Assembly (NCBI RefSeq): GCF_039962255.1
Contig: NZ_JAMPKY010000009.1
Location: forward strand, 186,001-250,000
DNA length: 64,000 nt
Direction of reading: 5' to 3'
Source: Leptolyngbya subtilissima AS-A7
GTDB taxonomy: Bacteria; Cyanobacteriota; Cyanobacteriia; Phormidesmidales; Phormidesmidaceae
In this document: in pieces, positions 37,481 through 51,408 of the stretch
Position numbering within the stretch: position 1 is the stretch's first letter
Layout of the letters: every line of letters starts with the position of its first letter
The notes under the pieces: model-generated
What the model saw: only the letters and a program-made list of their open reading frames with translations
The model's database searches: none
Told to the model about the DNA's origin: nothing
Made by a program: the position numbers and the translations under genes

Positions 37481-40400
37481 ATGACTGCTCAAGCCCCCGT
37501 TTTAGAGAGCTTTATCAAGCGTTACGGCGATCGCAACTACCGCTACCCCGTGCTGGTACGCCACCAGGGCACCGTGATTGCCCTGGCGATGGATGACCAG
37601 CGCCGCATCTATTATTCCGTGCTGAATCTCAATGGTCAGGGAAATTCCCTCGACGTGAATAGCTGGGCTGACCAGCCCCAGGAGCTGGAGTTCCCCAAAG
37701 AAATTGCTGAAGTGGGCTTTGGCCTCGCCGATCAGCTGCTGCTGCCGACGGTGAAAAAAGGGAGCCGTACCCCGGTCGATGCCGGTGTGGTGGTAGCCGA
37801 CAACGAAGTAGACAAGTTTCTCTCCAGAACCGCGCGATTGACGGCAGATGCCCCGTTTCAATCGATGTCGGATGGGCGATTTGTTTACGTGTTTCGCCAG
37901 GCGATCGCCGCTAACCACCCCGACCAAATCACCGTTGAAGGCCCCAAAAACCGCCAGATCCCAATCGTAGACTCGACGCTGCTGGTCGATCGCTTTGTGC
38001 TGTCGGGGGCGTCGGGCGCATCCCAGGCTGGGGAAGCTGCCCCGGTACCGCAGCTCAAGCTCAATCTAGAGGTGCGCTTTCGCCGCAGCCGCAGCAAGAC
38101 TCGCCCCCAGAGCACCAAAGACAGCCTGGGCGCACGCGACATGCAGGATCAGCCCTTCTTTGAGCCCACCCAGGAGCTGTCGTTTATTCGCAACTTGCAG
38201 GAGGGGCGGTTTTCAATCGTGCTGCTGCCCACCACCATTGCCGAGGTGTCGCGCTGGCAGATCTTTGCCTTTAACAGCGCCACAGAAATGATCGACGCCT
38301 ACAACGTGGAGCGATCGCTAGAGGGCCTGTTCAACACCCGAGGCACTCAATCTGCCTCCAGCAACGATGCCGCCGAGACGGCGCTGAACTTCAGCCAGGA
38401 GAGTGACCACGTGGTGCTGGCCCCAGGAGTTCGCCTCGGCCAGGGCTTTAGTCAGGAGGCGTGGATTTTCCCCCGCGTTACCGCACCGGAGCCGGGGGAA
38501 GCGCTAGAGCAGGCTCTGCTGGGGAATGACGACAAGACCGCCACGGCTCCACCCTCGATCTGGATTGTGGACAACCGCCGGGTGCGGGTGGGCTTTGGCG
38601 ATGGCGCTGAGTTCCAGTCCTTCATCACTGGGGAGGTGTTGCGATCGAACCAGTGGAACCATCTGGCAGTGGTATTTAACAACGACCCCGAGGATGCGGG
38701 CTATCACCTCTACGTCAATGGTCTGCCCGTGGATGTGCGGCAGGAAGGCACATCCACGGGCACCAGCGTAGGCAAGGTGCCGGTGGATGCTGCGATCACG
38801 CTGATCGGTGCGCCCAGCCGCAGCTTCTTTGGCCTGATCGACGAGATTCGCCTGTGGAATCGGCCGCGCTCGGAGCGAGAAATTCGCAGCGATCGCGGCC
38901 TGCGCCTCTCTGGCCACGAACTGGGGCTGACGGCCTACTGGCGACTGGATGAAGGCTCTGGCCGCGAAATTTTCGACCACACCAGCAACCACGCCCCCGG
39001 CACCATGACGGCAGGCTTTGCCAACCGCGCCTGGGTAGCCTCCGACGCACCCATTGGCGAAAACGCCGGAGTGAACCGCGACAGCTTCCGCTTTGAGGGC
39101 CGCACCGTCGAGTCGGGCCTCGCCTCGCTGCTCTACTTCCAGCAGGAGGAAGCCCGCACCGGCTACGACCAACAGGCTAAGCCCCTGCGTCAGGGAGCGC
39201 GGGTGATGCTGGCGGTGGCTACCCAAGCGGCTGGAGGCGATCGCAAAGAAATTGCCACCCTTGACTTTGGCGTTTCTGCCAACGGCCGCCTAGCCAAGGT
39301 CGCCGACAACTTGCGGCTCAAGCCCGTAGCGGTGGAGCGCGACGGCGACCCAGTGGATGTGAGCGCGGAACTGGCCCAGATCCAATCGATTCAGCAGGTG
39401 ATTGACCAAACCCTAAGCGCCGACGACAGTGCCGATGTGAGCGTTGCACTGGCCCAGATTGAGGCGTTGCAGGCCGCTATTAGCCAAAAGCAGCAGTCAG
39501 CTCGCACCGTGGATGTCAACGCCGAACTCGATCGCATTGGCACCTTGCAGGGCGCCATTACCCAAAAGACCCAGCGCGTGACCACCCTGAGCGAGGAGAT
39601 CGACTACCTCAATTGGGTGTTTAGGGTTGTGGATGACGCAATTGCCAACCGCAGCACCGGGCTCACCGTGCCAGCGGGTAGCTTAGATAGCCTCAATCTA
39701 CCGGCTAAGCTCAGCCGACTGCGCGAGCTGCGTAACCTCCAGGCAAATGGCCAGCAAGAGCTGCAGCAGCTGCTAGATTTTCTGCGCAATGCTCGGGTCA
39801 CCCTGCACGAGCACGCTAACTTTGGCGGCCGCTCTCTATCCTTTGGTCTGAACGCTATTGGCAACAGCTTTTCGCCCCGCTTTGTGGGCTATACCCAGCT
39901 TAATCAGCACAACTTCAACGACCTGATCAGCAGCATTAGCATTTCGGCTTTTGTTCGCGTGGGGCGAGGGTCGCAGCTGTTTTTGCCGGCGCTGCAAGTC
40001 ACTGTTTTCGAGCATGCCAACCGCAACAGCGGCCAAAATGGGTTTGCCCACACGTTTACCGATACTACGGCCTTTGTCGGTCGTGACTTCAACGATCGCA
40101 TCTCCAGCCTAGAGATCTCCGAAAACTCAGCTTTTCGCAATCACTGCGATGCGCTGCAGCGATCGCTCGACTCCCTCACCACTGACCTCAGCACTCTGCT
40201 CGACGAGCTGCGCGGCATTCGCGCCAGCATTGAAGCCCTGCGCACCGACCAAGACCAGCAGCGGCAGCAGCTGGAGCAGGCGGTAATTAGCGATCGCACC
40301 GCCCTGTCCGCCCTGCAAAACCTGCTGAACAAGGGCTTTGCCGCCACCATGCCGCTGGTGCATAGCGACGTCAATGGTCTGTCGGTGGCGGGCGGGCTGC

Positions 40401-43400
40401 TCACCTTCGCCTGGGCCGACGACACCCCGCTGCTGTTCGACAGCGCCGTGGGCAACGTGGCGATGTACTTTCGCGGTACCGACGATCAGTTCTTTGTCGC
40501 CTACTACAAAACCCTGACCCAGCGGGCGCGCTATGCCCTAAACGATGCCCTGGGGGCAGAGGCGGTGGTGGGTTTTGCCCGCTCCACCGAGGCCGAGATG
40601 GATCGCATTCGCCTCGATGTGGTTGGGGAGGCAGTTGACTTCACCTGCATTGTCACCATTCAGAGCAAAGCCAGCGACCAGACAATTATTGAAACCTGGC
40701 ACCAAGTACCTCGCGCCCCCGAGGGCTTTGCCAAGGTGCTAAATGGCCTGGCGGGCGATCGCACCTTTGTCGGTCGCGGCGAAATTGCCCTCACCCCTGG
40801 GCGCGCCGACACTCTGACCGTAGCGGGGGGCATTCACCGCTCGCTACCGGCTGGGGCCACGCTGTTTATTGGTGATTTTAAGGCCACTCTTGAAACCGCG
40901 GTAGATCAGGGCGCAACGGAGCTGGCCATTCGCACTGAGGCTGCCAGCTCCACTACCGAACCGCTACCCGTGTTCTTTTTGGAATACGACTATGCGGTGC
41001 AGGCCAGTACCACCCAGGGCGGTGCTGACCTCTCCTCCGGCTCTAAGCTGCTGGCTTTTATCGCCAACGGCGCCGGCCAAGCGGTGAAGAATGGCACCGT
41101 GCACAGCGGACTGACGCTCTCTAGCCGCTGGGTCTCTGAGGCTCCGGGCCACACTTATGCCTTCGATGGCCAAGACAGCCACGCTCGGCTGGAGGCCTCC
41201 AGGGCCGATTTTGACCAGCAGCTGCGGCGGTTTTCGCCCCAGGCTGACCTAACGCTAGAAGCCTGGGTGCGCCCCAGTCAGATCGCCGAGGCCAGTCTGC
41301 GATCGCGCCTGCTCCACTACCAACCAGCGGCAAATACCACCGATACTCGCTACCTGCTGGGGCTGAAGCGTGAGGAGCTGACCACAGCGATCGCCCTCAA
41401 CGGCAGCACTGACCTGGTGCGCATTCCCAATGCTACTCACCTCAATTTTGCTGGGGCCATCACTCTAGAGGCTTGGGTCAAACCCGCCAAAAACGAGAAC
41501 CTGGGCAACATCATCGTCCACGGCAACGCCAGCGGTCACCAGGTCTTTCTGCGCATCAATGAGGGGCGCTACGAGGTGGGCAGCCACAATGGCACTGACC
41601 ACAAGGTGGCGATCGTCATGCCCGCCGCCGATCGCACCGGCAACGCCTGGGTTCACCTAGCCGCGGTTTACGACGGCACCCACTGGCGGCTGTACCGCAA
41701 CGGCATTGCCCTTGGTGAACAGGCCGAGGCGATCGGGGCCATCCCCATCAATGCCGACTGGGGCTTGGGTGCTCACCCCAACCCGAGCGATCGCGTGCGG
41801 ATTTTGACTGGGGCGATCGCCGAGGCCCGCATCTGGCAGCGGGGTCGCACCCAGACCGAAATCGCCGCCGACATGACCCGCGAACTCAGCGGCAACGAAA
41901 CCGACCTGGCGGGCTGCTGGCGCTTCGACGACTTTGGCAATCGCCGCGCCACTGACCACGCCCGCTTTGGCCACCACGGTCAGCTCGAAGGCAATCCCCA
42001 GCCGACGGAGTCCCCTATTCCGGCTTACTCGGTGTTTGCTGGAGTGGGTGAGCAACTGGTGCAGTCATCCCAGAAGATTGCCGCGGGCAACTGGAACCAC
42101 CTGGCGGCGGTGTTCAACCAGTCCTACGGAGTGCAGCTCGATGGCCAGCCCGGCACCTTTTTGGATGCAGGCGCTGACCTCACCCTCGATCTCAACCGCG
42201 ATCTGACCATCGAAGCGGCCTTTAAAGTCAATGATCTGAGCCAGCCCCGCGCCCTGCTCACTAAGGGCAAACTCAGCGCTACCGAAGACCCCGAGCAGCA
42301 CGTGCCTTACGCCCTTTACCTCAACCCGGCAGGCCGTTTGGTCTTCGCCTTTGAAGATGTCAGAGGCAAAAAACACCTGTTCATCTCCCAGCCCATCCCC
42401 AACCCCACCGAGTTTCACACCGTTACCGTCACCCGCAAGCGCCATACCATCACCAGCCCGGTGCGCAACAATAGCGATCAGCAAACTGGAGTCGATATTG
42501 TCTCTTGGGATGCGATTCAGTTTTTTGTGGATGGTAAGGCGAATACTCCCAACGGCCAGCCCTACGGTCTGTTTGAGTACAAAAAAGCGGGCAGCGACAC
42601 TACCGGCACTCCCCGCCAGGAGGACGGCCGCAATGGGGGCAGCACCAGCCCCGGCTTCAATGCCGGACAGCCCCAGCAGCCCCTGGACATTGGTAACAGC
42701 AATGCGCCGCTAGAGTTTGGCTCGGGCTTTAGTCTGGCCAGCTTCGACCCAGCGGGCGACGACCTAGACAGTATCAACGGCGTGTACATTTCCGCTGAGG
42801 CTCTGTCTATTGCTGATAACGGCGACATGACTAACCCCCAACAAGCCGAAATGGTGGCCTTGGCCGTTGGGGTCAATGCCGGGGTTCGTGATTTAGAGCG
42901 GGATAGCGATCTGCTCAATACCGTCCGCAATGGGTTCGATAACGGCTTTGCGATCGCCCCCCTACAGGGCACCCTGGCCGAAATTCGCCTGTGGAATGTG
43001 CCTTTGGAGGCGGGCAGTATCAAACCTACAATTCAGGGTGGCGAAAAGGGACTGCTCGCTTGGTGGCGCTTTGAGGAAGCCGAGGGCGCGATCGCCTTTG
43101 ACTCCAAGGGCAGCAGCCATGCCCGCTTTAAAGGAGCGGTGCAGTGGGTCAAAGACCCCAACCCCAGCGGGTCGCAGCTGGTGCTCTACCGCAACGGGCA
43201 GCTGCTGAGTAGTGAGCTGGTGCCAGCGGCCAGCCGCGCCGTCCTGCTCTCGCCCCAGGCCCAGTTCACCCTGGGCGCGCTGCAACGCAACAATAGAACC
43301 CAGGAGTTTTTCCAGGGCGAACTGGAGGAAGTGCGGATCTGGCAAACGGCTCGCACCCCAGAGCAGCTGCAAGATAACCTGTTCCGGCGGATACTGGGCG

Positions 43401-46400
43401 AAAACGGGCAGTTCCTCGACAACCGCGAAGACCTGCTCGCCTACTATCCCTTTGACACTCAGAGGGCCGGAGTGCTCTCCGACTTCTCGCTGCTGGGCAA
43501 TGATCTGACGCCAGTTGACGCTGAGTTTGTGCTCTCCACTGCCCCCATCGGTGAAGACACTCCCCAGGTGCGCAGCGCCCTGGCGGGGGTGAGGACTCCC
43601 TTTAGCGATCGACTCCAAAGCGCCCCCGCCGTGCAGGAGTACGGTGACCTGCAAACCGATGTCGACGGCAACCTGTTTGGCATCTATAAGCGCTGCTACG
43701 GCCTGATCAAAGACGGTCAGTGGGAATTAGTCACCGGCTTTAAGGTGGGCGAACTGGTCACCGAATGGGTTGGCCAGGTGCAATTTGACCCGCAGCTGAT
43801 CGGCTTTATCGAAGGGGCACCGCCAGTCCCCGGCGAAAACCTCACCAGCCGAGGGGCCGTGCTCGGGGAATTTGCCAACTACAACGGGGCTAGCTCCGTT
43901 GAACTCAAGCAGGCCAGCAAAACCAACTTCACCTTTTCCGCTGATAAAGAAAGCGGCTTTGACTCCAGCTTTGATCTGACTGCCGGGCTGCTGACCGGGG
44001 CCAATGTCGAAGCCGGTATTGGCCTGGTAACTGAGGTGGCCGACGCGGACAGCGCCTTTGGCATCAAGGCCAAGTTTGAAAATTCCCTGGGTTGGCTCAG
44101 CTCGGGCAGCACCAGCCTGGGGCTGACCACTAACCTATCGAGCAAGCAGCAGCTGCAAGGGTTTGTCGAGCCTGCCAATGCCGTTGCCTTCGGCGATGTC
44201 GGTCGGCGGTTTATTCCCGAAAACACGGGCTTTGCCTTGGTACAGTCGCAGACCGCCGATGTGTTTGCCCTGCGCCTCAAGCACAATAGCGCCCTGGTGT
44301 CATACCAGATGCGCCCCAACCCCGACATTCCGCCTGATCGCAACATCATCAACTTCCCCATCAACCCCGCCTACACCAAGCAGGGCACCCTCGACGGCAA
44401 GATCGGCTTCACCCCCGATGCGGCCTACCCCAATGCCCTCACCTTTAGCAGCGACAGCAGCTTTTATAAGCCGATCGAGGCCTTTGCCCTCAAGCAGCGC
44501 ATCCAGCGCGAAGAGGAGCGGGTGCGGGCCTACTACGACCAGTACGACGCCGGTGCCGTAGGCCGTCGCCAGAACGTGCTGTTTGGCCAGAGCGGCGACC
44601 TGGGCAGCGAGGATGTGCTGCAAAACCTGCCCCGGCTCGAGAAGCGCAACCTGGCCAACACCTACGTCTGGACGGCGGACGGCGGTCTGTTTGCCGAAAC
44701 CCAGGAAACTATGGATGTGGTGCAGGAGAGCTACGGCGGGTCCTACGCTTTTAAGGGGCAGGCGGGCATCTTTGCCGACCTGGACGTGGCCATCAGCGGT
44801 GTGGGCTTTAAGTTTGGCTTTGAGGCCATGTTTGGCGGCCGGCTCAACGTGCAGGCCACCAAGAGCGTGCAGTCAGAAAATAGCTTCTCGGTCGAGGTGA
44901 ATGTCGATGAGGTTGAGCGCGATGTATTTCTGCGCGACGAAGCGGGAGAAGTGCTGTTTGACCTCAGCAATCCTTTGACACCCAAAGCCCTGCGCCATCC
45001 TGGCAAGGTGGATGCCTACCGGTTTATGACCTTCTATCTGGAGCCCCAGGCCGATCACTTCGACCACTTCTTTAGCCAGGTGGTTGACCCGATTTGGTTA
45101 GAGCAAAGCACCGACGCCAACGCCCTGGCCCTGCGTGGCCTGCGCGATGCCAACAAAGGCCCTGGCACTAAGCCCCCCTGCTGGCGCATTTTCCACCGGG
45201 TCACCTTTGTCAGCCGGGTGCTGCCTCCGATCGGCAGCACCAAGCCCCTGCCGGCGCTAGAAGCCACTCTGCGGGAGCTGAGCATCGACAGCAACTTTGA
45301 GTTGATCAAGCGGCTCGATCCCTTTGTGGCCGACAAAGTAGACGACTTTGGCGAATTCTCCCGCGCCATTCGCGAGACCATTGCTACCTTCCTGCCCGAG
45401 CTGCAGCCCCACGTAGCCGCCATCACCGAGTTTATGCGGCTGTTCTACGGCGTCACCGAGGTCACCAGCCTGACCGACAGCCCCGAGCTGACGGCACTGT
45501 TGGAGGGCGATCGCAGCCCCAATACCGCCCCAGTAGTGCGGGTAGGCCGCAGCCAAATCCTGCATCTGGAGGATGAGGCGGTGCAAACCACCCTGCCCGG
45601 CTCGGTGGCCGACGATCGCCTCTCCCCTGAGGCCGTCTTCGTCACCTGGGCGGTGCAGTCTGTTCCCACTGGAGCCACCGTCGCCTTTGACGATCTTCAC
45701 AGCCCCGTGACCGTTGCCAGCTTTAGCAACATTGGCCGCTACCGGCTAGCCCTAACCGCCAGCGATGGCACCCTGTCTGCCACTGAAGACCTCGATATTT
45801 TGGTTAACCAGTCGCCCCTGGTGCGAGCTGGTGACGACCAGGAGATCGGCTTCCGCCAGTCCCTAGAACTGCGGGGCGAACTGGTGCGGGATGGTCGAGG
45901 CGATCGGACGACTCAAGCCCTCACCACTCGCTGGGAGGCGGTCAGCGGCCCTGGCTCCGTCACCTTTGACAACGCCGCCGCCCCGCGCACCAGCGCGCTC
46001 TTTACCGCCAGTGGTGTCTACCTGCTGCGGCTGACGGCAGAAACTGCCACGGCTAGCGGTGTGCTCACCCACAGCGACGATCTGCAAGTATTTGTAGGGG
46101 CGCGCATCAACCGGGGTCTGCTCAGCCTCTACAGCTTTGCGGATAGTTTGGCCAATGGGGGCAACACCGTGCGCGATGTCGCTGGCATCGGGGTGCCGGT
46201 AGATCTGGCGATCGCCGGTAAACCCACGCCGCTCAAAGCCCGCGGCGCAACCACGTCCTTTGCCCTGGCGCTGAAGAAGCCCGCCCGACTCACCAGCACC
46301 AATGCCAGCCGTCTGATCCAGGCGATCAGAGCCAGCGGTGAGTTCACCCTAGAAGCCTGGATTAACCCCTCCCAGGGGAACCAGCCCGGCCTGGGTCGCA

Positions 46401-48916
46401 TTCTCACCCTGTCGGGTGGGGCCAGTAGCCGCAACCTGATTTTGGGCCAGGCGGGTAACCAGTTTCACCTTGGGGTGCGCACCAGCGAGACGAATGGCAA
46501 CGCCAGCGATCGCGCCTTTGCCGGCGGCATTGTGGCCCCTGCCACTCTCACCCACGTCGTCTGCACCCGCGAGACTAATGGCACCACCCGTCTGTATCTG
46601 AATGGACAGGTCGTGGCCCAGCGCGTCATCCCTGGGACCTTGGCCAACTGGGACGACAGCTTTGCCCTGGCCCTGGGCAACGAGCTGGGGGACACCCTCA
46701 GCGAAGACCGCGCCTGGCTGGGCGATTTCCACCTGGTGGCGCTCTACAGTAGCGCCCTTACCTCCGCCGAAATTGCCACCAACTTCGAGGTGGGGGCCGA
46801 CGCCAACCTAGCTCCGGTGGTTTCTGCCGGTGCCGACCGGGTGATCAACCTCCCTAGTGCTCTCTCCCTCAAAGGAGCTGTTATGGATGACCAGCTGCTC
46901 AACGGCAACCTATCAGTGCTGTGGAGCCAGCCCGGTGGCCCATCCCCGATCACTTTTAGCGACCCGACCAGCCTAGAGCCCACGGTGACCTTTGCTGAAC
47001 CGGGCGTCAACGATGAAGACGGACAGCTTGTTAAGGTGGCGGGCGTCTACACCCTGCGGCTCACCGTCGGCGACGAGGCCCAGGCCATTAGCGACGAGGT
47101 ACAGATCACCGTTAACCACGCGCCGATGATCAAAGCGCCGGATGCGATCGTGGTGCAGTTGCCCAACCGAGCCCAGCTCACCGCCGAGGTGCAAAGCGGC
47201 TTGGGCAACCCGCGGCAGGGACGGCTCACCCTGCTCTGGAGCCAGCTTAGCGGACCGGGCACGGTTTCTTTTGGCGACCCTACCTTGGCCAACACCACCG
47301 CTCAGTTCTCCGAAAGCGGCACCTACGGGCTGCGGCTCACCGCCAGCAACGGGCTGCTCACCGCGGTGGCCGACGTTACCGTCCACGCCAACAAAGCGCC
47401 GACGATTCGGGCCAGCGCTGCACCGCTGGTCAACCTGCCCGCCACCGCTGCCCTCCAGGGTGAAGTGGTGGATACCGGCCTGGCCGATCCGGCAACAGGT
47501 ATTGTGAGCGCGCAGTGGAGTCTGGTGAATGGCCCCGGCCCGGTCACCTTTGCCGATGCCAAGCGGCTGTCTACCACCGCCACCTTCAGCACCAGCGGCG
47601 AATACACCCTGCGGCTGACCGTCAGCACCGTGGAACTCACCACCAGCCGCGAGGTGACGATTACCGCCAACCAGGCTCCGGTGGTCGATGCTGGTCCCGA
47701 CCAGAGCCTCGATTTCCCTGCTCTGGCCGAACTTGATGGCACCGTTAGCGACGATGGCTTCCCCACTACCCCTGGTCGCCTGACCCTGGCCTGGAGCAAA
47801 GTCAGCGGCCCCGGCGCGGTCACCTTTGCCGACCCCGCCAGCGACATCACCACGGCCCAGTTTTCTCGGGGCGGTGAGTATGTGCTGCGGCTGACAGCAA
47901 ACGATGGGGCGATCGCCACCCACGACGAGGTCACCATTCAGGTGAACCAGCCCCCGGTAGTTAACGCTGGCGCCGATCAAGTTCTAACCCTGGCAGTGTC
48001 AGCGGCAGGAGCGGTTCAGGCGGCAACGACAGCTCTCAACGGCACCGTCCAAGACGATGCTCTCCCGGCCAATACTCTGACCACGCTTTGGAAGCAGCTC
48101 AGCGGTCCGGCCCCCGCCCTTCTGAAAGATGCTGCAAAACCCTCCACCTCGGCTGAGTTCCCTGGAGCGGGCACCTACGTACTGGAGTTGAGCGCCAGCG
48201 ACGGACGGCTGACCGGGCGCGATACCGTCACAGTCGTCGTTTCCAAACGAGTCATGGTAGGTGTTCAGGCCCTCTACGATTTCCGGGAAGGCAGTGGCAA
48301 CACCATCCGTGACCAGTCGGGGATTCAGCCCGCGCTGGATTTGGCTCTGGTAAACGGGGCGATCGCTCGCCTTCCCCAGGGCATTAGCCTCCAACAGCCT
48401 AGCCTGCTGGCTACCGCCGGAGCTGCGACCCGGCTCAACCAGGCCATTCAGCGCAGCCAGGCCATTACCCTAGAGGCCTGGGTGAAACCAGCCCAGCTTT
48501 CCCCCAGCCAGACCCCGGCGCGGATTGTCACCCTCTCAGCCGATACCGGGCATCGCAACGTCACCCTGGGCCAAAACAACAACCAGTACGTAACGCGCCT
48601 GCGCACCACCACTACTGGAGTCAATGGGTCTAGCAAGGTGGTCGAAGCGGGTTCAGTCAGCGTCAACCAGCTGACCCACCTGGTCTATACCCGCGACGGC
48701 GAGGGCAATACCACCCTCTACCTCGACGGCCAGGTGCAAAAACGCGAGGTGATCAGCGGCGATCTTTCCAACTGGGATGCTACCTACCGCCTGGCTCTAG
48801 GTAATGAGCTGACAGGCGATCGCCCTTGGCTGGGCGAGTACTACTTAGTCGCCATCTACGATCGCGCCCTCAGCACCGAGGAGGTCAGCCAAAACTTCGC
48901 TGCCCGCCTTCCATAG
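37481..48916 (+). CDS. giant 3811-residue multimodular LamG / beta-gamma-crystallin / PKD-like protein
   Basis: A single uninterrupted frame with AGGAGA eight bases before ATG. No signal peptide. Modules in order: unknown N-domain (1-300); LamG-like jelly roll (about 300-520); three coiled-coil units of VDVSAELAQIQS type (626-710); two beta/gamma-crystallin motifs with calcium-type NDLISS (813-818) and NDRISS (871-876); coiled coil (889-954); LamG-like domains (about 1225-1515 and 1550-2020); a Gly/Ser-rich beta module of unknown family (2040-2670); two PKD/REJ-like domains; LamG (2877-3106); five more PKD/REJ-like repeats; final LamG (3590-3811). LamG and PKD modules usually bind glycans or proteins, so adhesion or surface recognition is likely. 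The export route is unclear: no RTX repeats, LPXTG or autotransporter barrel is seen. Confidence 0.9.
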   Translation: MTAQAPVLESFIKRYGDRNYRYPVLVRHQGTVIALAMDDQRRIYYSVLNLNGQGNSLDVNSWADQPQELEFPKEIAEVGFGLADQLLLPTVKKGSRTPVDAGVVVADNEVDKFLSRTARLTADAPFQSMSDGRFVYVFRQAIAANHPDQITVEGPKNRQIPIVDSTLLVDRFVLSGASGASQAGEAAPVPQLKLNLEVRFRRSRSKTRPQSTKDSLGARDMQDQPFFEPTQELSFIRNLQEGRFSIVLLPTTIAEVSRWQIFAFNSATEMIDAYNVERSLEGLFNTRGTQSASSNDAAETALNFSQESDHVVLAPGVRLGQGFSQEAWIFPRVTAPEPGEALEQALLGNDDKTATAPPSIWIVDNRRVRVGFGDGAEFQSFITGEVLRSNQWNHLAVVFNNDPEDAGYHLYVNGLPVDVRQEGTSTGTSVGKVPVDAAITLIGAPSRSFFGLIDEIRLWNRPRSEREIRSDRGLRLSGHELGLTAYWRLDEGSGREIFDHTSNHAPGTMTAGFANRAWVASDAPIGENAGVNRDSFRFEGRTVESGLASLLYFQQEEARTGYDQQAKPLRQGARVMLAVATQAAGGDRKEIATLDFGVSANGRLAKVADNLRLKPVAVERDGDPVDVSAELAQIQSIQQVIDQTLSADDSADVSVALAQIEALQAAISQKQQSARTVDVNAELDRIGTLQGAITQKTQRVTTLSEEIDYLNWVFRVVDDAIANRSTGLTVPAGSLDSLNLPAKLSRLRELRNLQANGQQELQQLLDFLRNARVTLHEHANFGGRSLSFGLNAIGNSFSPRFVGYTQLNQHNFNDLISSISISAFVRVGRGSQLFLPALQVTVFEHANRNSGQNGFAHTFTDTTAFVGRDFNDRISSLEISENSAFRNHCDALQRSLDSLTTDLSTLLDELRGIRASIEALRTDQDQQRQQLEQAVISDRTALSALQNLLNKGFAATMPLVHSDVNGLSVAGGLLTFAWADDTPLLFDSAVGNVAMYFRGTDDQFFVAYYKTLTQRARYALNDALGAEAVVGFARSTEAEMDRIRLDVVGEAVDFTCIVTIQSKASDQTIIETWHQVPRAPEGFAKVLNGLAGDRTFVGRGEIALTPGRADTLTVAGGIHRSLPAGATLFIGDFKATLETAVDQGATELAIRTEAASSTTEPLPVFFLEYDYAVQASTTQGGADLSSGSKLLAFIANGAGQAVKNGTVHSGLTLSSRWVSEAPGHTYAFDGQDSHARLEASRADFDQQLRRFSPQADLTLEAWVRPSQIAEASLRSRLLHYQPAANTTDTRYLLGLKREELTTAIALNGSTDLVRIPNATHLNFAGAITLEAWVKPAKNENLGNIIVHGNASGHQVFLRINEGRYEVGSHNGTDHKVAIVMPAADRTGNAWVHLAAVYDGTHWRLYRNGIALGEQAEAIGAIPINADWGLGAHPNPSDRVRILTGAIAEARIWQRGRTQTEIAADMTRELSGNETDLAGCWRFDDFGNRRATDHARFGHHGQLEGNPQPTESPIPAYSVFAGVGEQLVQSSQKIAAGNWNHLAAVFNQSYGVQLDGQPGTFLDAGADLTLDLNRDLTIEAAFKVNDLSQPRALLTKGKLSATEDPEQHVPYALYLNPAGRLVFAFEDVRGKKHLFISQPIPNPTEFHTVTVTRKRHTITSPVRNNSDQQTGVDIVSWDAIQFFVDGKANTPNGQPYGLFEYKKAGSDTTGTPRQEDGRNGGSTSPGFNAGQPQQPLDIGNSNAPLEFGSGFSLASFDPAGDDLDSINGVYISAEALSIADNGDMTNPQQAEMVALAVGVNAGVRDLERDSDLLNTVRNGFDNGFAIAPLQGTLAEIRLWNVPLEAGSIKPTIQGGEKGLLAWWRFEEAEGAIAFDSKGSSHARFKGAVQWVKDPNPSGSQLVLYRNGQLLSSELVPAASRAVLLSPQAQFTLGALQRNNRTQEFFQGELEEVRIWQTARTPEQLQDNLFRRILGENGQFLDNREDLLAYYPFDTQRAGVLSDFSLLGNDLTPVDAEFVLSTAPIGEDTPQVRSALAGVRTPFSDRLQSAPAVQEYGDLQTDVDGNLFGIYKRCYGLIKDGQWELVTGFKVGELVTEWVGQVQFDPQLIGFIEGAPPVPGENLTSRGAVLGEFANYNGASSVELKQASKTNFTFSADKESGFDSSFDLTAGLLTGANVEAGIGLVTEVADADSAFGIKAKFENSLGWLSSGSTSLGLTTNLSSKQQLQGFVEPANAVAFGDVGRRFIPENTGFALVQSQTADVFALRLKHNSALVSYQMRPNPDIPPDRNIINFPINPAYTKQGTLDGKIGFTPDAAYPNALTFSSDSSFYKPIEAFALKQRIQREEERVRAYYDQYDAGAVGRRQNVLFGQSGDLGSEDVLQNLPRLEKRNLANTYVWTADGGLFAETQETMDVVQESYGGSYAFKGQAGIFADLDVAISGVGFKFGFEAMFGGRLNVQATKSVQSENSFSVEVNVDEVERDVFLRDEAGEVLFDLSNPLTPKALRHPGKVDAYRFMTFYLEPQADHFDHFFSQVVDPIWLEQSTDANALALRGLRDANKGPGTKPPCWRIFHRVTFVSRVLPPIGSTKPLPALEATLRELSIDSNFELIKRLDPFVADKVDDFGEFSRAIRETIATFLPELQPHVAAITEFMRLFYGVTEVTSLTDSPELTALLEGDRSPNTAPVVRVGRSQILHLEDEAVQTTLPGSVADDRLSPEAVFVTWAVQSVPTGATVAFDDLHSPVTVASFSNIGRYRLALTASDGTLSATEDLDILVNQSPLVRAGDDQEIGFRQSLELRGELVRDGRGDRTTQALTTRWEAVSGPGSVTFDNAAAPRTSALFTASGVYLLRLTAETATASGVLTHSDDLQVFVGARINRGLLSLYSFADSLANGGNTVRDVAGIGVPVDLAIAGKPTPLKARGATTSFALALKKPARLTSTNASRLIQAIRASGEFTLEAWINPSQGNQPGLGRILTLSGGASSRNLILGQAGNQFHLGVRTSETNGNASDRAFAGGIVAPATLTHVVCTRETNGTTRLYLNGQVVAQRVIPGTLANWDDSFALALGNELGDTLSEDRAWLGDFHLVALYSSALTSAEIATNFEVGADANLAPVVSAGADRVINLPSALSLKGAVMDDQLLNGNLSVLWSQPGGPSPITFSDPTSLEPTVTFAEPGVNDEDGQLVKVAGVYTLRLTVGDEAQAISDEVQITVNHAPMIKAPDAIVVQLPNRAQLTAEVQSGLGNPRQGRLTLLWSQLSGPGTVSFGDPTLANTTAQFSESGTYGLRLTASNGLLTAVADVTVHANKAPTIRASAAPLVNLPATAALQGEVVDTGLADPATGIVSAQWSLVNGPGPVTFADAKRLSTTATFSTSGEYTLRLTVSTVELTTSREVTITANQAPVVDAGPDQSLDFPALAELDGTVSDDGFPTTPGRLTLAWSKVSGPGAVTFADPASDITTAQFSRGGEYVLRLTANDGAIATHDEVTIQVNQPPVVNAGADQVLTLAVSAAGAVQAATTALNGTVQDDALPANTLTTLWKQLSGPAPALLKDAAKPSTSAEFPGAGTYVLELSASDGRLTGRDTVTVVVSKRVMVGVQALYDFREGSGNTIRDQSGIQPALDLALVNGAIARLPQGISLQQPSLLATAGAATRLNQAIQRSQAITLEAWVKPAQLSPSQTPARIVTLSADTGHRNVTLGQNNNQYVTRLRTTTTGVNGSSKVVEAGSVSVNQLTHLVYTRDGEGNTTLYLDGQVQKREVISGDLSNWDATYRLALGNELTGDRPWLGEYYLVAIYDRALSTEEVSQNFAARLP

Positions 48917-48956
48917 ACAGCTAGAAATTGCCGCTGACTAGGCGGCGATCTGCAAA

Positions 48957-49011
48957 AAACCGGGTTTCTGCTAGAGAGTAACGCCTCTGACGCAGAAACC
49001 CGGTTTCTTTT
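48957..49011 (+). terminator. intrinsic terminator after the giant gene
   Basis: Perfect 15-base arms AAACCGGGTTTCTGC (48957-48971) and its reverse complement (48992-49006) flank a 20-base loop, followed by CTTTTTC. The A-run on the left also lets it serve the convergent pentapeptide gene. Confidence 0.88.
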
Positions 49012-49057: not shown

Positions 49058-49585
49058 CTAGTGCAGCCCCCAAGAGATCCATCGGGAGCTTGTAGCAGCA
49101 TCGCCAGCATCGGATGACCTAACCCAGTTGCCACTGGTATCATCCAGTTCGACTGAGGTGAGATCGGTGTTTTCAACCCAGGCGTTGGTTAGGGTGGCGT
49201 GGGAGAGGTTAGCACCGCTGAGGGCTACCTCACGCAAAATTGCGCCCTGGAGATCGGCCTGTTCTAAATTAGCCGTGCGCAGGTCGGCGTAGCTGAGGTC
49301 GGCCCCAACCAGGTTGGCCCGCTCCAAGTCGGCCCCAATTAAATTGATGTGCTTGAGATTGGCCCCGCTGAGGTCGGCCCCAATCAGCTCGGCGTCGGTC
49401 ACGTTGGCCCGCTCTAGATTGGCCCGCGAGAGGTCGGCCCCGCTGAGGTCAGCCTGAGACAGATCGGCCCCACTGAGGTCGATGCCGCTGAGGGTGGCAC
49501 CGCGCAGATCGGCCCCATGAAAACGAACGCCTGAAAAGTTGCGATCGCCTCGGTTGTATTCGTGCAAAAACTGTTGAATATCCAT
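49058..49585 (-). CDS. pentapeptide repeat protein
   Basis: A 175-residue protein made mainly of A(D/N)LxX pentapeptides, from GVRFHGADLRGATLSGIDLS through YADLRTANLEQADLQGAIL, giving about four to five turns of a right-handed quadrilateral beta-helix. A short helix (MDIQQFLHEYNRGDRNF) caps the N-terminus and a disordered Ser/Asp tail ends it. No signal peptide is visible. Cyanobacteria carry many such proteins, mostly of unknown role. The ATG at 49585 is preferred over 49603 as it gives the usual MDIQQFL start. Confidence 0.9.
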   Translation of the reverse strand: MDIQQFLHEYNRGDRNFSGVRFHGADLRGATLSGIDLSGADLSQADLSGADLSRANLERANVTDAELIGADLSGANLKHINLIGADLERANLVGADLSYADLRTANLEQADLQGAILREVALSGANLSHATLTNAWVENTDLTSVELDDTSGNWVRSSDAGDAATSSRWISWGLH

Positions 49586-50062
49586 GGAAGACAGCCTCCA
49601 CAACTTGGCTAGATCAGCCTTAACGGGCAGTGCCTTGGGGTTGAAGCTTGCTGACTTGTCTTGCTCAGCAGGGGGCCAGCGTAGCCATTCAGCTAAGGCA
49701 GCCGCTCGGGGTGAGCCGCTTTAGGGTCGAAGAAATCGGCCAACAGCTATCGTTGTCTGCTAACTTATGCCTCTCAAGATGGCACCGGTTGAAGTGCCAG
49801 TTGCCGTTAAAGCTATCCCCATTGTCGGCTAATGCTCAGGCATGCGGGGAGGTGATTTATAGAACGCAACGCTCCTCGGGCAGCAGTTTTCCTAACAGCT
49901 CCCAGCTCTATCGGTAAGCGAGGCTGAACATGTTATAAATGTTAAGGAATTATAAGTATTCTCGTGGGCCAATCTTTGCCCCCATTAAGCTGTTTGCGGT
50001 GATTATCAGAGTTATTGAAGTTTCGGCTGTTGATTTCTCGATTTTGCAATCAAGCTTAGGCT
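49586..50062. promoter_or_regulatory. intergenic region upstream of desA
   Basis: No supported gene lies here; an 89-codon frame at 49648-49917 has unprotein-like composition. The AT-rich stretch TTATAAATGTTAAGGAATTA (49931-49950) is the best promoter candidate for desA or for a leader RNA. A transcript starting there would have a leader of about 200 nt that includes the hairpin described next. Confidence 0.4.
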
Positions 50063-50098
50063 CTGTTCGGTTCCCTACGGGGTGAACAGATTTTTTTT
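50063..50098 (+). terminator. terminator-like hairpin in the desA leader
   Basis: Arms CTGTTC (50063-50068) and GAACAG (50084-50089), extended inward by CCC/GGG, are followed by A and eight T (50091-50098). It points toward desA, 55 bases before its start, yet no plus-strand gene lies upstream. It could end a small RNA or act as an attenuator controlling desA. Confidence 0.65.
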
Positions 50099-50152
50099 GG
50101 GCAAACAGTCCAGCTCTGATGTGCGCACCTTAACTTCTGTGGAGACTAGTCC

Positions 50153-51193
50153 TTGACTGCAATTTTTGAGACTTCCGCCAGAGCTGCGGATGTGAACCCT
50201 TACGGCGACCTGACCCTAAAGCAGGTTATTCAAACTATTCCTAAAGCTTATTTTCAAAAAGATCCGCGCAAAGCTTGGGCAGCTGTAGCGCTCAGCGTAG
50301 GGGCTGTAACCCTAGGATATGTAGCGATCGCCTTTTCCCCCTGGTTTTTACTCCCCTTTGCCTGGTTTTTGACCGGCACCGCCCTAACGGGCTTTTTTGT
50401 GGTGGGCCACGACTGCGGCCACCGTTCCTTTGCTAACCGCCGCTGGGTCAACAACTGGCTGGGGCACATCATGTTTCTGCCGCTGATTTACCCCTTCCAC
50501 AGCTGGCGGCTGCTGCACGACATTCACCACCGCCACACCAACGATATGGAGATCGACAACGCCTGGGCACCGTGGAGCAAGGAAGAATACTCCGGTGCGG
50601 GTGGCTTCTTGCAGGCCGTATATCGGTCTATGCGGAGCTGGCTGTGGTGGCTGGCGTCAGTGGCTCACTGGGGCGCACTGCACTTTGATCTGCGCAATTT
50701 TGAACCCCGCGACCACGGTAAGGTCAAGCGCTCGATCGCGGCGGTGGTGGTCTTTGCGCTGGTGTTTTTCCCCACTCTATTTTACTTTGCCGGCCCCTGG
50801 GGTGTCGTGAAATTTTGGCTGATGCCCTGGCTGGGCTACCACTTCTGGATGAGCACGTTTACGCTAGTGCACCACACCATCCCTGAAATTCAGTTTCGCT
50901 ACGGCGACACCTGGAATGAGGTGGAGTCGCAGCTCTCCGGAACACTCCACTGCGACTATCCCAAGTGGATCGAGGTGCTGTGCCACGATATAAACGTCCA
51001 TGTTCCCCACCATGTTTCGGTAGGAATTCCGTCCTACAACCTAAGGCCCGCCTACGCGGCGCTAAAGGAAAACTGGGGCCCTCTCATGAAGGAAACTAAG
51101 TTTTCCTGGGAACTGATGCAGACGATCACGACCCGCTGCCATATCTATCATCCTGAGCGGGCCTACGAAACGTTTCGGGAGCTAGGGCAATAG
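50153..51193 (+). CDS. desA: acyl-lipid delta-12 (omega-6) fatty acid desaturase
   Basis: A 346-residue membrane desaturase that adds the delta-12 double bond to lipid-bound C18 acyl chains using ferredoxin electrons. The three di-iron histidine boxes are HDCGH (86-90), HDIHH (122-126) and HVPHH (283-287). [34 protein letters not shown] and [12 protein letters not shown] match DesA proteins over their length. The start is a TTG with GGAG eight bases upstream. The resulting N-terminus (M)TAIFE, and residues such as [12 protein letters not shown], align with known DesA starts. Expression in this family is often cold-induced; the leader hairpin may matter here. Confidence 0.93.
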
Positions 51194-51273: not shown

Positions 51274-51408
51274 GATGGGGCCAATTGGTAAACTGCGACA
51301 CCTCAAACGCGCAGGAGGTGCTTGCGATCGCGACAATCGTGGGTAGCATTAGGAGTCTTGCCCACGCTTGACTCCAAGCCTACTCCTCACACCGCTGCAC
51401 CAACTGCT

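Follow-up and report, generated by a model that had tools for sequence, protein, structure and literature searches.

The desA Locus

The window, the whole 64,000-nt stretch of DNA that was analyzed, is from a member of the Nodosilinea group of cyanobacteria, and our subject is one desaturase gene within it and the leader that precedes that gene. We keep for the gene the presumptive name desA, given in an earlier note on this DNA on grounds of similarity. Desaturases of this kind preserve membrane fluidity at low temperature. The closest named relative of its product, in a list from which the window's own genome may be absent, is the DesA of Phormidium tenue FACHB-1052 (98%). The features of the locus, in order, are these:

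49931-49956, plus strand: conserved promoter-like block TGTTATAAATGTTAAGGAATTATAAG, defined by PWM, with a -10-like TATAAA at 49934-49939 and a putative transcription start at about 49945
49966-49982, plus strand: predicted hairpin P1, GGGC-CAATCTTT-GCCC(C), in the consensus fold of 21 leaders
49985-49997, plus strand: predicted 5' strand of stem P2, TTAAGCTGTTTGC, from the consensus fold; within it, CTGTTTGC (49990-49997) is also a candidate antiterminator strand, from a duplex test
50046-50059, plus strand: predicted 3' strand of P2, GCAATCAAGCTTAG, closing the long stem right before the terminator (consensus fold and MFE)
50062-50090, plus strand: terminator hairpin P3, TCTGTTCG-(GTT)-CCC-TACG-GGG-TGAACAGA, -13.9 kcal/mol, z -3.2, kept in the genus
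50091-50098, plus strand: T8 tract, the putative termination point, invariant in 21/21 aligned leaders
50099-50105, plus strand: GGGCAAA directly after the T-run, which by the alignment could pair with TTTGCCC (49975-49981) as an alternative to P1
50141-50145, plus strand: Shine-Dalgarno-like GGAGA of desA, kept ahead of the start codon across the genus alignment
50153-51193, plus strand: desA, acyl-lipid delta-12 desaturase, TTG start, 346 aa (PF00487, E 1.4e-31; orthologues across cyanobacteria)

As the earlier note had it, there is no plus-strand gene for the hairpin to terminate: the pentapeptide gene upstream (49058-49603) is on the minus strand, nothing annotated on the plus strand lies between it and desA, and the next plus-strand gene ends at 48916. 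With no such gene nearby, and with the hairpin standing downstream of desA's own promoter-like block, a terminator belonging to an upstream gene was ruled out. An 89-aa plus-strand ORF at 49648-49917 has no Pfam match. Farther off, a 3811-aa ORF (37481-48916, plus strand) carries repeated stretches that by eye look LamG- and PKD-like.

A Probable Terminator Hairpin in the Leader

What, then, is a terminator doing in front of desA? The hairpin with an eight-T run that the earlier note placed before the gene, pointing at it, is borne out by both the sequence and the fold. P3 is oriented toward desA, with 54 bases between T8 and the TTG start, and its pairing is T50062-A50090, CTGTTC (50063-50068) with GAACAG (50084-50089), G50069 with T50083, and CCC (50073-50075) with GGG (50080-50082); like any intrinsic terminator, it is a G+C-containing hairpin with a U-tract directly 3'. 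None of 200 shuffles folds as well as the 39-nt element, and when wider flanks are included, the z values (-1.2, -0.12, and -0.5) are unremarkable. The bulged hairpin was not among the sites returned by a simple terminator scan of the region (5 sites vs. 10.9 in shuffles), probably because the rule permits no bulge.

Such a structure by itself is near chance and proves nothing. In 464 kb of the same genome, a comparable one (-10 kcal/mol or better, with at least 6 T in 8) stands in 6 of 120 divergent leaders, desA among them, and in 5 of 120 on the antisense strand. It is conservation in relatives that lifts the hairpin above chance.

The pattern of the promoter-like block, TGnTATAAATGTnAAGG...TAAG, scores above 11 upstream of desA in 73 of 80 named desA loci, a descriptive count since the PWM was trained on the same 80 loci; in shuffled upstream regions, the 99th percentile is 10.2 and the highest score 16.5. 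Of 100 class loci, whose genomes overlap with those of the named set, 64 pass as well. Elsewhere in the host genome, there is a single site with at most one mismatch to GGTATAAATGTNAAGG, and it was set aside as evidence of another gene under the same block, its surroundings resembling coding sequence by eye. A start of desA transcription downstream of 50098, which the earlier note had named among the results that would refute its reading, finds no backing in the sequence: the block lies upstream of the hairpin, and between the T-run and the start codon, no -10-like hexamer is conserved (the best matches 3-5 of 6, at varying positions). The block ATAAATGTnAAGGTTTTTTAA that follows the -10 (window 49934-49960) looks like a reversed HLR1 (RpaB) half-site pair, and desA may also be under RpaB/Hik33-type control.

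Conservation Within Nodosilinea

A protein search in 57 genomes yielded 25 loci at genus level (Nodosilinea) with a full desA. Conservation of the stem in close relatives, the other test that the earlier note had set for its proposal, went in its favor: the hairpin with at least 7 T is found in 21 of the 25 genus leaders, and L063 and L074, two more named genomes, have it too. When 21 leaders are aligned (L020 and L022-L026, which align poorly over the leader, are left out), T8 is invariant in all 21, and the sequence is nearly unchanged from the putative start to the T-run. The T7 tract is absent from four of the 25 (L022, L024, L025, and L026); among these, L024 has instead a T5 behind a different hairpin, and in L025 and L026, no comparable terminator was seen. 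One locus, L014, has roughly 85-105 nt inserted between the element and the gene and retains both hairpin and T8. Within the genus, a full-length match to the leader occurs only at desA, which rules out the idea that the whole leader is a repeated element.

The alignment is, in fact, too conserved for strong covariation to be obtainable within the genus: of the 37 predicted pairs, only 3 have changed on both sides, and pair 27/36 of P1, for example, is CG in 19 leaders, UA in one, and UG in one. For two genus loci with a very different leader sequence, L020 (strain BL0902) and L023, the same order is predicted: a 5' hairpin, a long closed stem, and a terminator. There, the P2 region is closed by a stem of different sequence; L023 was folded in two parts, the stretch ahead of the terminator on its own and the terminator separately (as L076).

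A leader peptide might also be imagined. Across the 21 leaders, no start is common to all, and the best candidate, a TTG in 18 of 21, is not preceded by anything Shine-Dalgarno-like; with no conserved short ORF bearing a ribosome site, a leader-peptide attenuator was ruled out.

Leaders Outside the Genus

How far does the arrangement extend? A class-wide sample of 290 genomes gave matches in 201. From the desA places among the matches listed, same-genus places excluded, we took 100 leaders of other genera. A terminator-like structure pointing toward desA is present in 53 of the 100, vs. 19 antisense and 15.7 in shuffled sequence, and at -12 kcal/mol or better, the figures are 29, 5, and 3.8. 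The named set, in which the 73 of 80 loci with a block score above 11 were counted and which has genomes in common with the 100-leader set, gives 32 of 73 vs. 6 antisense and 9.85 shuffled; its members outside the genus alone give 15 of 53 vs. 6 and 5.15. The remaining 47 of the 100 fail the scan, including the Synechocystis-like L168 and L179. By eye, and genus by genus, the hairpin is present in 6/6 leaders of g64, 3/3 of g37, and 7/8 of g79 and missing in others.

Many of these leaders have in common the form CCTGCT-loop-AGCAGG-T5/6. Searched as a regular expression, CCTGCT-loop-AGCAGG-T turns up in 22 of the 100, of which one (L241) looks different. The stricter CCTGCT-N3-30-AGCAGG-T6 was run on 16 whole genomes selected for a desA leader with the motif or something close to it; 9 of its 13 matches there lie at desA. 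From 37 collected hairpins, 33 were used (L140, L141, L216, and L222 were left out); 91.3% of their pairs are standard, with double changes in 7 of 8 pairs and 33 such cells vs. 10.1 in shuffles, values inflated by the choice of hairpins through hairpin or motif searches.

A covariance model was built on the 33 leaders, all from outside the genus, and run over 464 kb of host sequence. Window positions 50056-50113 come second there (19.2 bits, E 0.023). The top match lies elsewhere (L253), so the model partly scores generic terminators. On 100 desA-region loci outside its build, only L175 and L093 fall below E 0.01, and L093 is the same record as model row L152. The model also matches 48936-49009 on the minus strand (17.3 bits), where a terminator for the minus-strand pentapeptide gene would be expected.

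On these comparisons, the desA-leader element is old and patchy, not universal. Directly after the T-run, GGGCAAA or GTGTGGCAAAT is found in several lineages (Nodosilinea, genus g79, and L027) and may serve as a pause site or bind a protein. A separate observation concerns L289 (G000:C8), the region upstream of a desaturase 31% identical to DesA, where a T8 stands roughly 50 nt before a probable GTG start. That T8 does not follow a hairpin but lies within the loop of one (AACGCCC/GGGCGTT), and TTAAGCTGT is common to this region and the desA leader.

A Leader That Attenuates?

Taken together, we think it probable, at about 0.62, that an intrinsic terminator inside the desA leader acts as a leader attenuator of the "actuaton" type with regulated read-through. 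Our reading rests on sequence, conservation, and predicted fold, and from these we infer the transcription start, the actual termination, and the regulation. The conserved promoter, about 210 nt upstream of the start codon, would drive desA through a leader of ~208 nt, in which the 5' hairpin P1, the long closed stem P2, and the intrinsic terminator (P3 + U8) would follow one another. A fraction of polymerases would halt at P3/U8 and release a leader RNA of ~150 nt, the remaining polymerases would pass the terminator to make desA mRNA, and the level of desaturase expression would be set by the fraction that reads through.

What might govern that fraction? In a base-paired switch, which we consider unlikely, CTGTTTGC would pair either inside P2, letting the terminator form, or with the 3' arm of the terminator, GTGAACAG, as an antiterminator, with a ligand or protein on P1/P2 in control. 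P1 and P2 are indeed present in the consensus fold of the 21 leaders, and CTGTTTGC forms the best duplex of the upstream leader with the 3' arm in 10 of the 11 core leaders examined, with 8 to 11 bp and z from -0.44 to -2.73. Yet the element is broken in L019 (z +0.27), the signal is absent in L020, L021, L023, L024, and most of the 22 leaders tested outside the genus, the leader matches no Rfam family, and the equilibrium probability of the CTGTTTGC/GTGAACAG pairing is about 1e-5 or less. An RNA thermometer, or some cold-sensing fold in the leader, is very improbable even though desA is cold induced in Synechocystis (PMC6789579): equilibrium folding gives P3 a formation probability of about 0.99 at 37, 28, 20, and 10 °C, the fold as a whole becomes lower in energy on cooling and changes little, and the Synechocystis-like leaders L168 and L179 show no such terminator. 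The temperature-sensing part of the earlier proposal is thus not supported; its two other suggestions, an attenuator and the end of an unannotated small RNA, are supported and are probably one thing, a terminator whose product would be the ~150-nt RNA.

The small RNA might instead be a separate gene ending at the terminator, with a promoter of desA's own further downstream. This we hold to be improbable: the ~150-nt unit of promoter-like block and terminator is highly conserved, which speaks for it, but the interval between T-run and start, where L014 carries its insertion, holds no conserved -10, and across cyanobacteria, the promoter block stays linked to desA and the leader sequence does not. 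Hairpins can protect mRNA 5' regions, which counts for a reading in which the hairpin serves stability or processing and terminates nothing. A Synechococcus study adds that many 3' ends there are not intrinsic terminators (PMC13289151). The T-run, however, is kept together with the stem, and the excess is strand specific (53 vs. 19), as expected of terminators, so that we would give this reading little chance.

With a thermometer unsupported, an antiterminator limited or negligible, and no conserved leader ORF, partial termination together with a trans-acting factor is favored. A factor that raises read-through, such as a cold-induced RNA-binding protein, a helicase, or an elongation factor, seems more probable than control by temperature melting or by a simple antiterminator helix. 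Two candidates come from one paper (PMC6789579): an RNA-binding protein said to stabilize desaturase mRNAs in Synechocystis, and NusG, listed there in a table of genes induced by stress. A far larger proposal, that in many cyanobacteria the first polyunsaturating desaturase is under attenuation, through a non-Rfam leader family with a cross-lineage promoter block, a re-evolving hairpin/U-tract, cold or membrane sensing by a trans factor, and a ~150-nt RNA with a role of its own, we regard as doubtful and offer as speculation.

Relation to Known Systems

An actuaton, as described for Synechocystis, is an sRNA that doubles as the 5'UTR of an mRNA made by read-through (PMC5386190). The likeness, here drawn from sequence, is a promoter, a leader RNA ending at a terminator, and, downstream in sense, a gene with no obvious separate promoter; the terminator stands in sense directly upstream of a protein gene, and the terminated RNA is putative. 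An abundant discrete sRNA belongs to the definition, whereas the desA leader RNA is so far a predicted one. Attenuator and riboswitch leaders with intrinsic terminators likewise have a conserved structured leader, then a terminator, before the gene, but the desA leader has no Rfam match or ligand, and its alternative pairing is weakly supported and in one clade. Rfam 15 gives no match in the window or the leader, and among 20 related loci, only one below threshold (nuoG, 21.3 vs. 33 bits), which rules out a known RNA family.

Intrinsic termination in cyanobacteria, which lack Rho, has been treated elsewhere (PMC13289151). The name desA does not occur in that study, in PMC4734099, or in the actuaton paper (PMC5386190), and among open-licence papers, preprints aside, we found no record of a terminator in the desA leader.

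Why should this matter? How cold raises the expression of desaturases has long been asked of cyanobacteria and was worked out mostly in Synechocystis, whose desA leader is here without such a terminator. If our reading is right, a conserved desA-leader terminator in many other lineages would place part of the control at transcription elongation and would offer a concrete, testable element. Leptolyngbya BL0902 (L020), which has the same arrangement as the host desA leader, is genetically tractable, chromosomal editing having been described for it (PMC11298460).

Yfr1 and other cyanobacterial sRNAs resemble the desA leader in being short structured RNAs; the host genome's Yfr1, however, lies elsewhere, at C3:36974-37039 (G000). 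The window does contain ACTCCTCACAC, which we take to be the Yfr1 core, at 51382-51392 upstream of an amidase gene. This occurrence is probably chance, given that the real Yfr1 is elsewhere and that the 11-mer appears in 5 of 100 shuffles.
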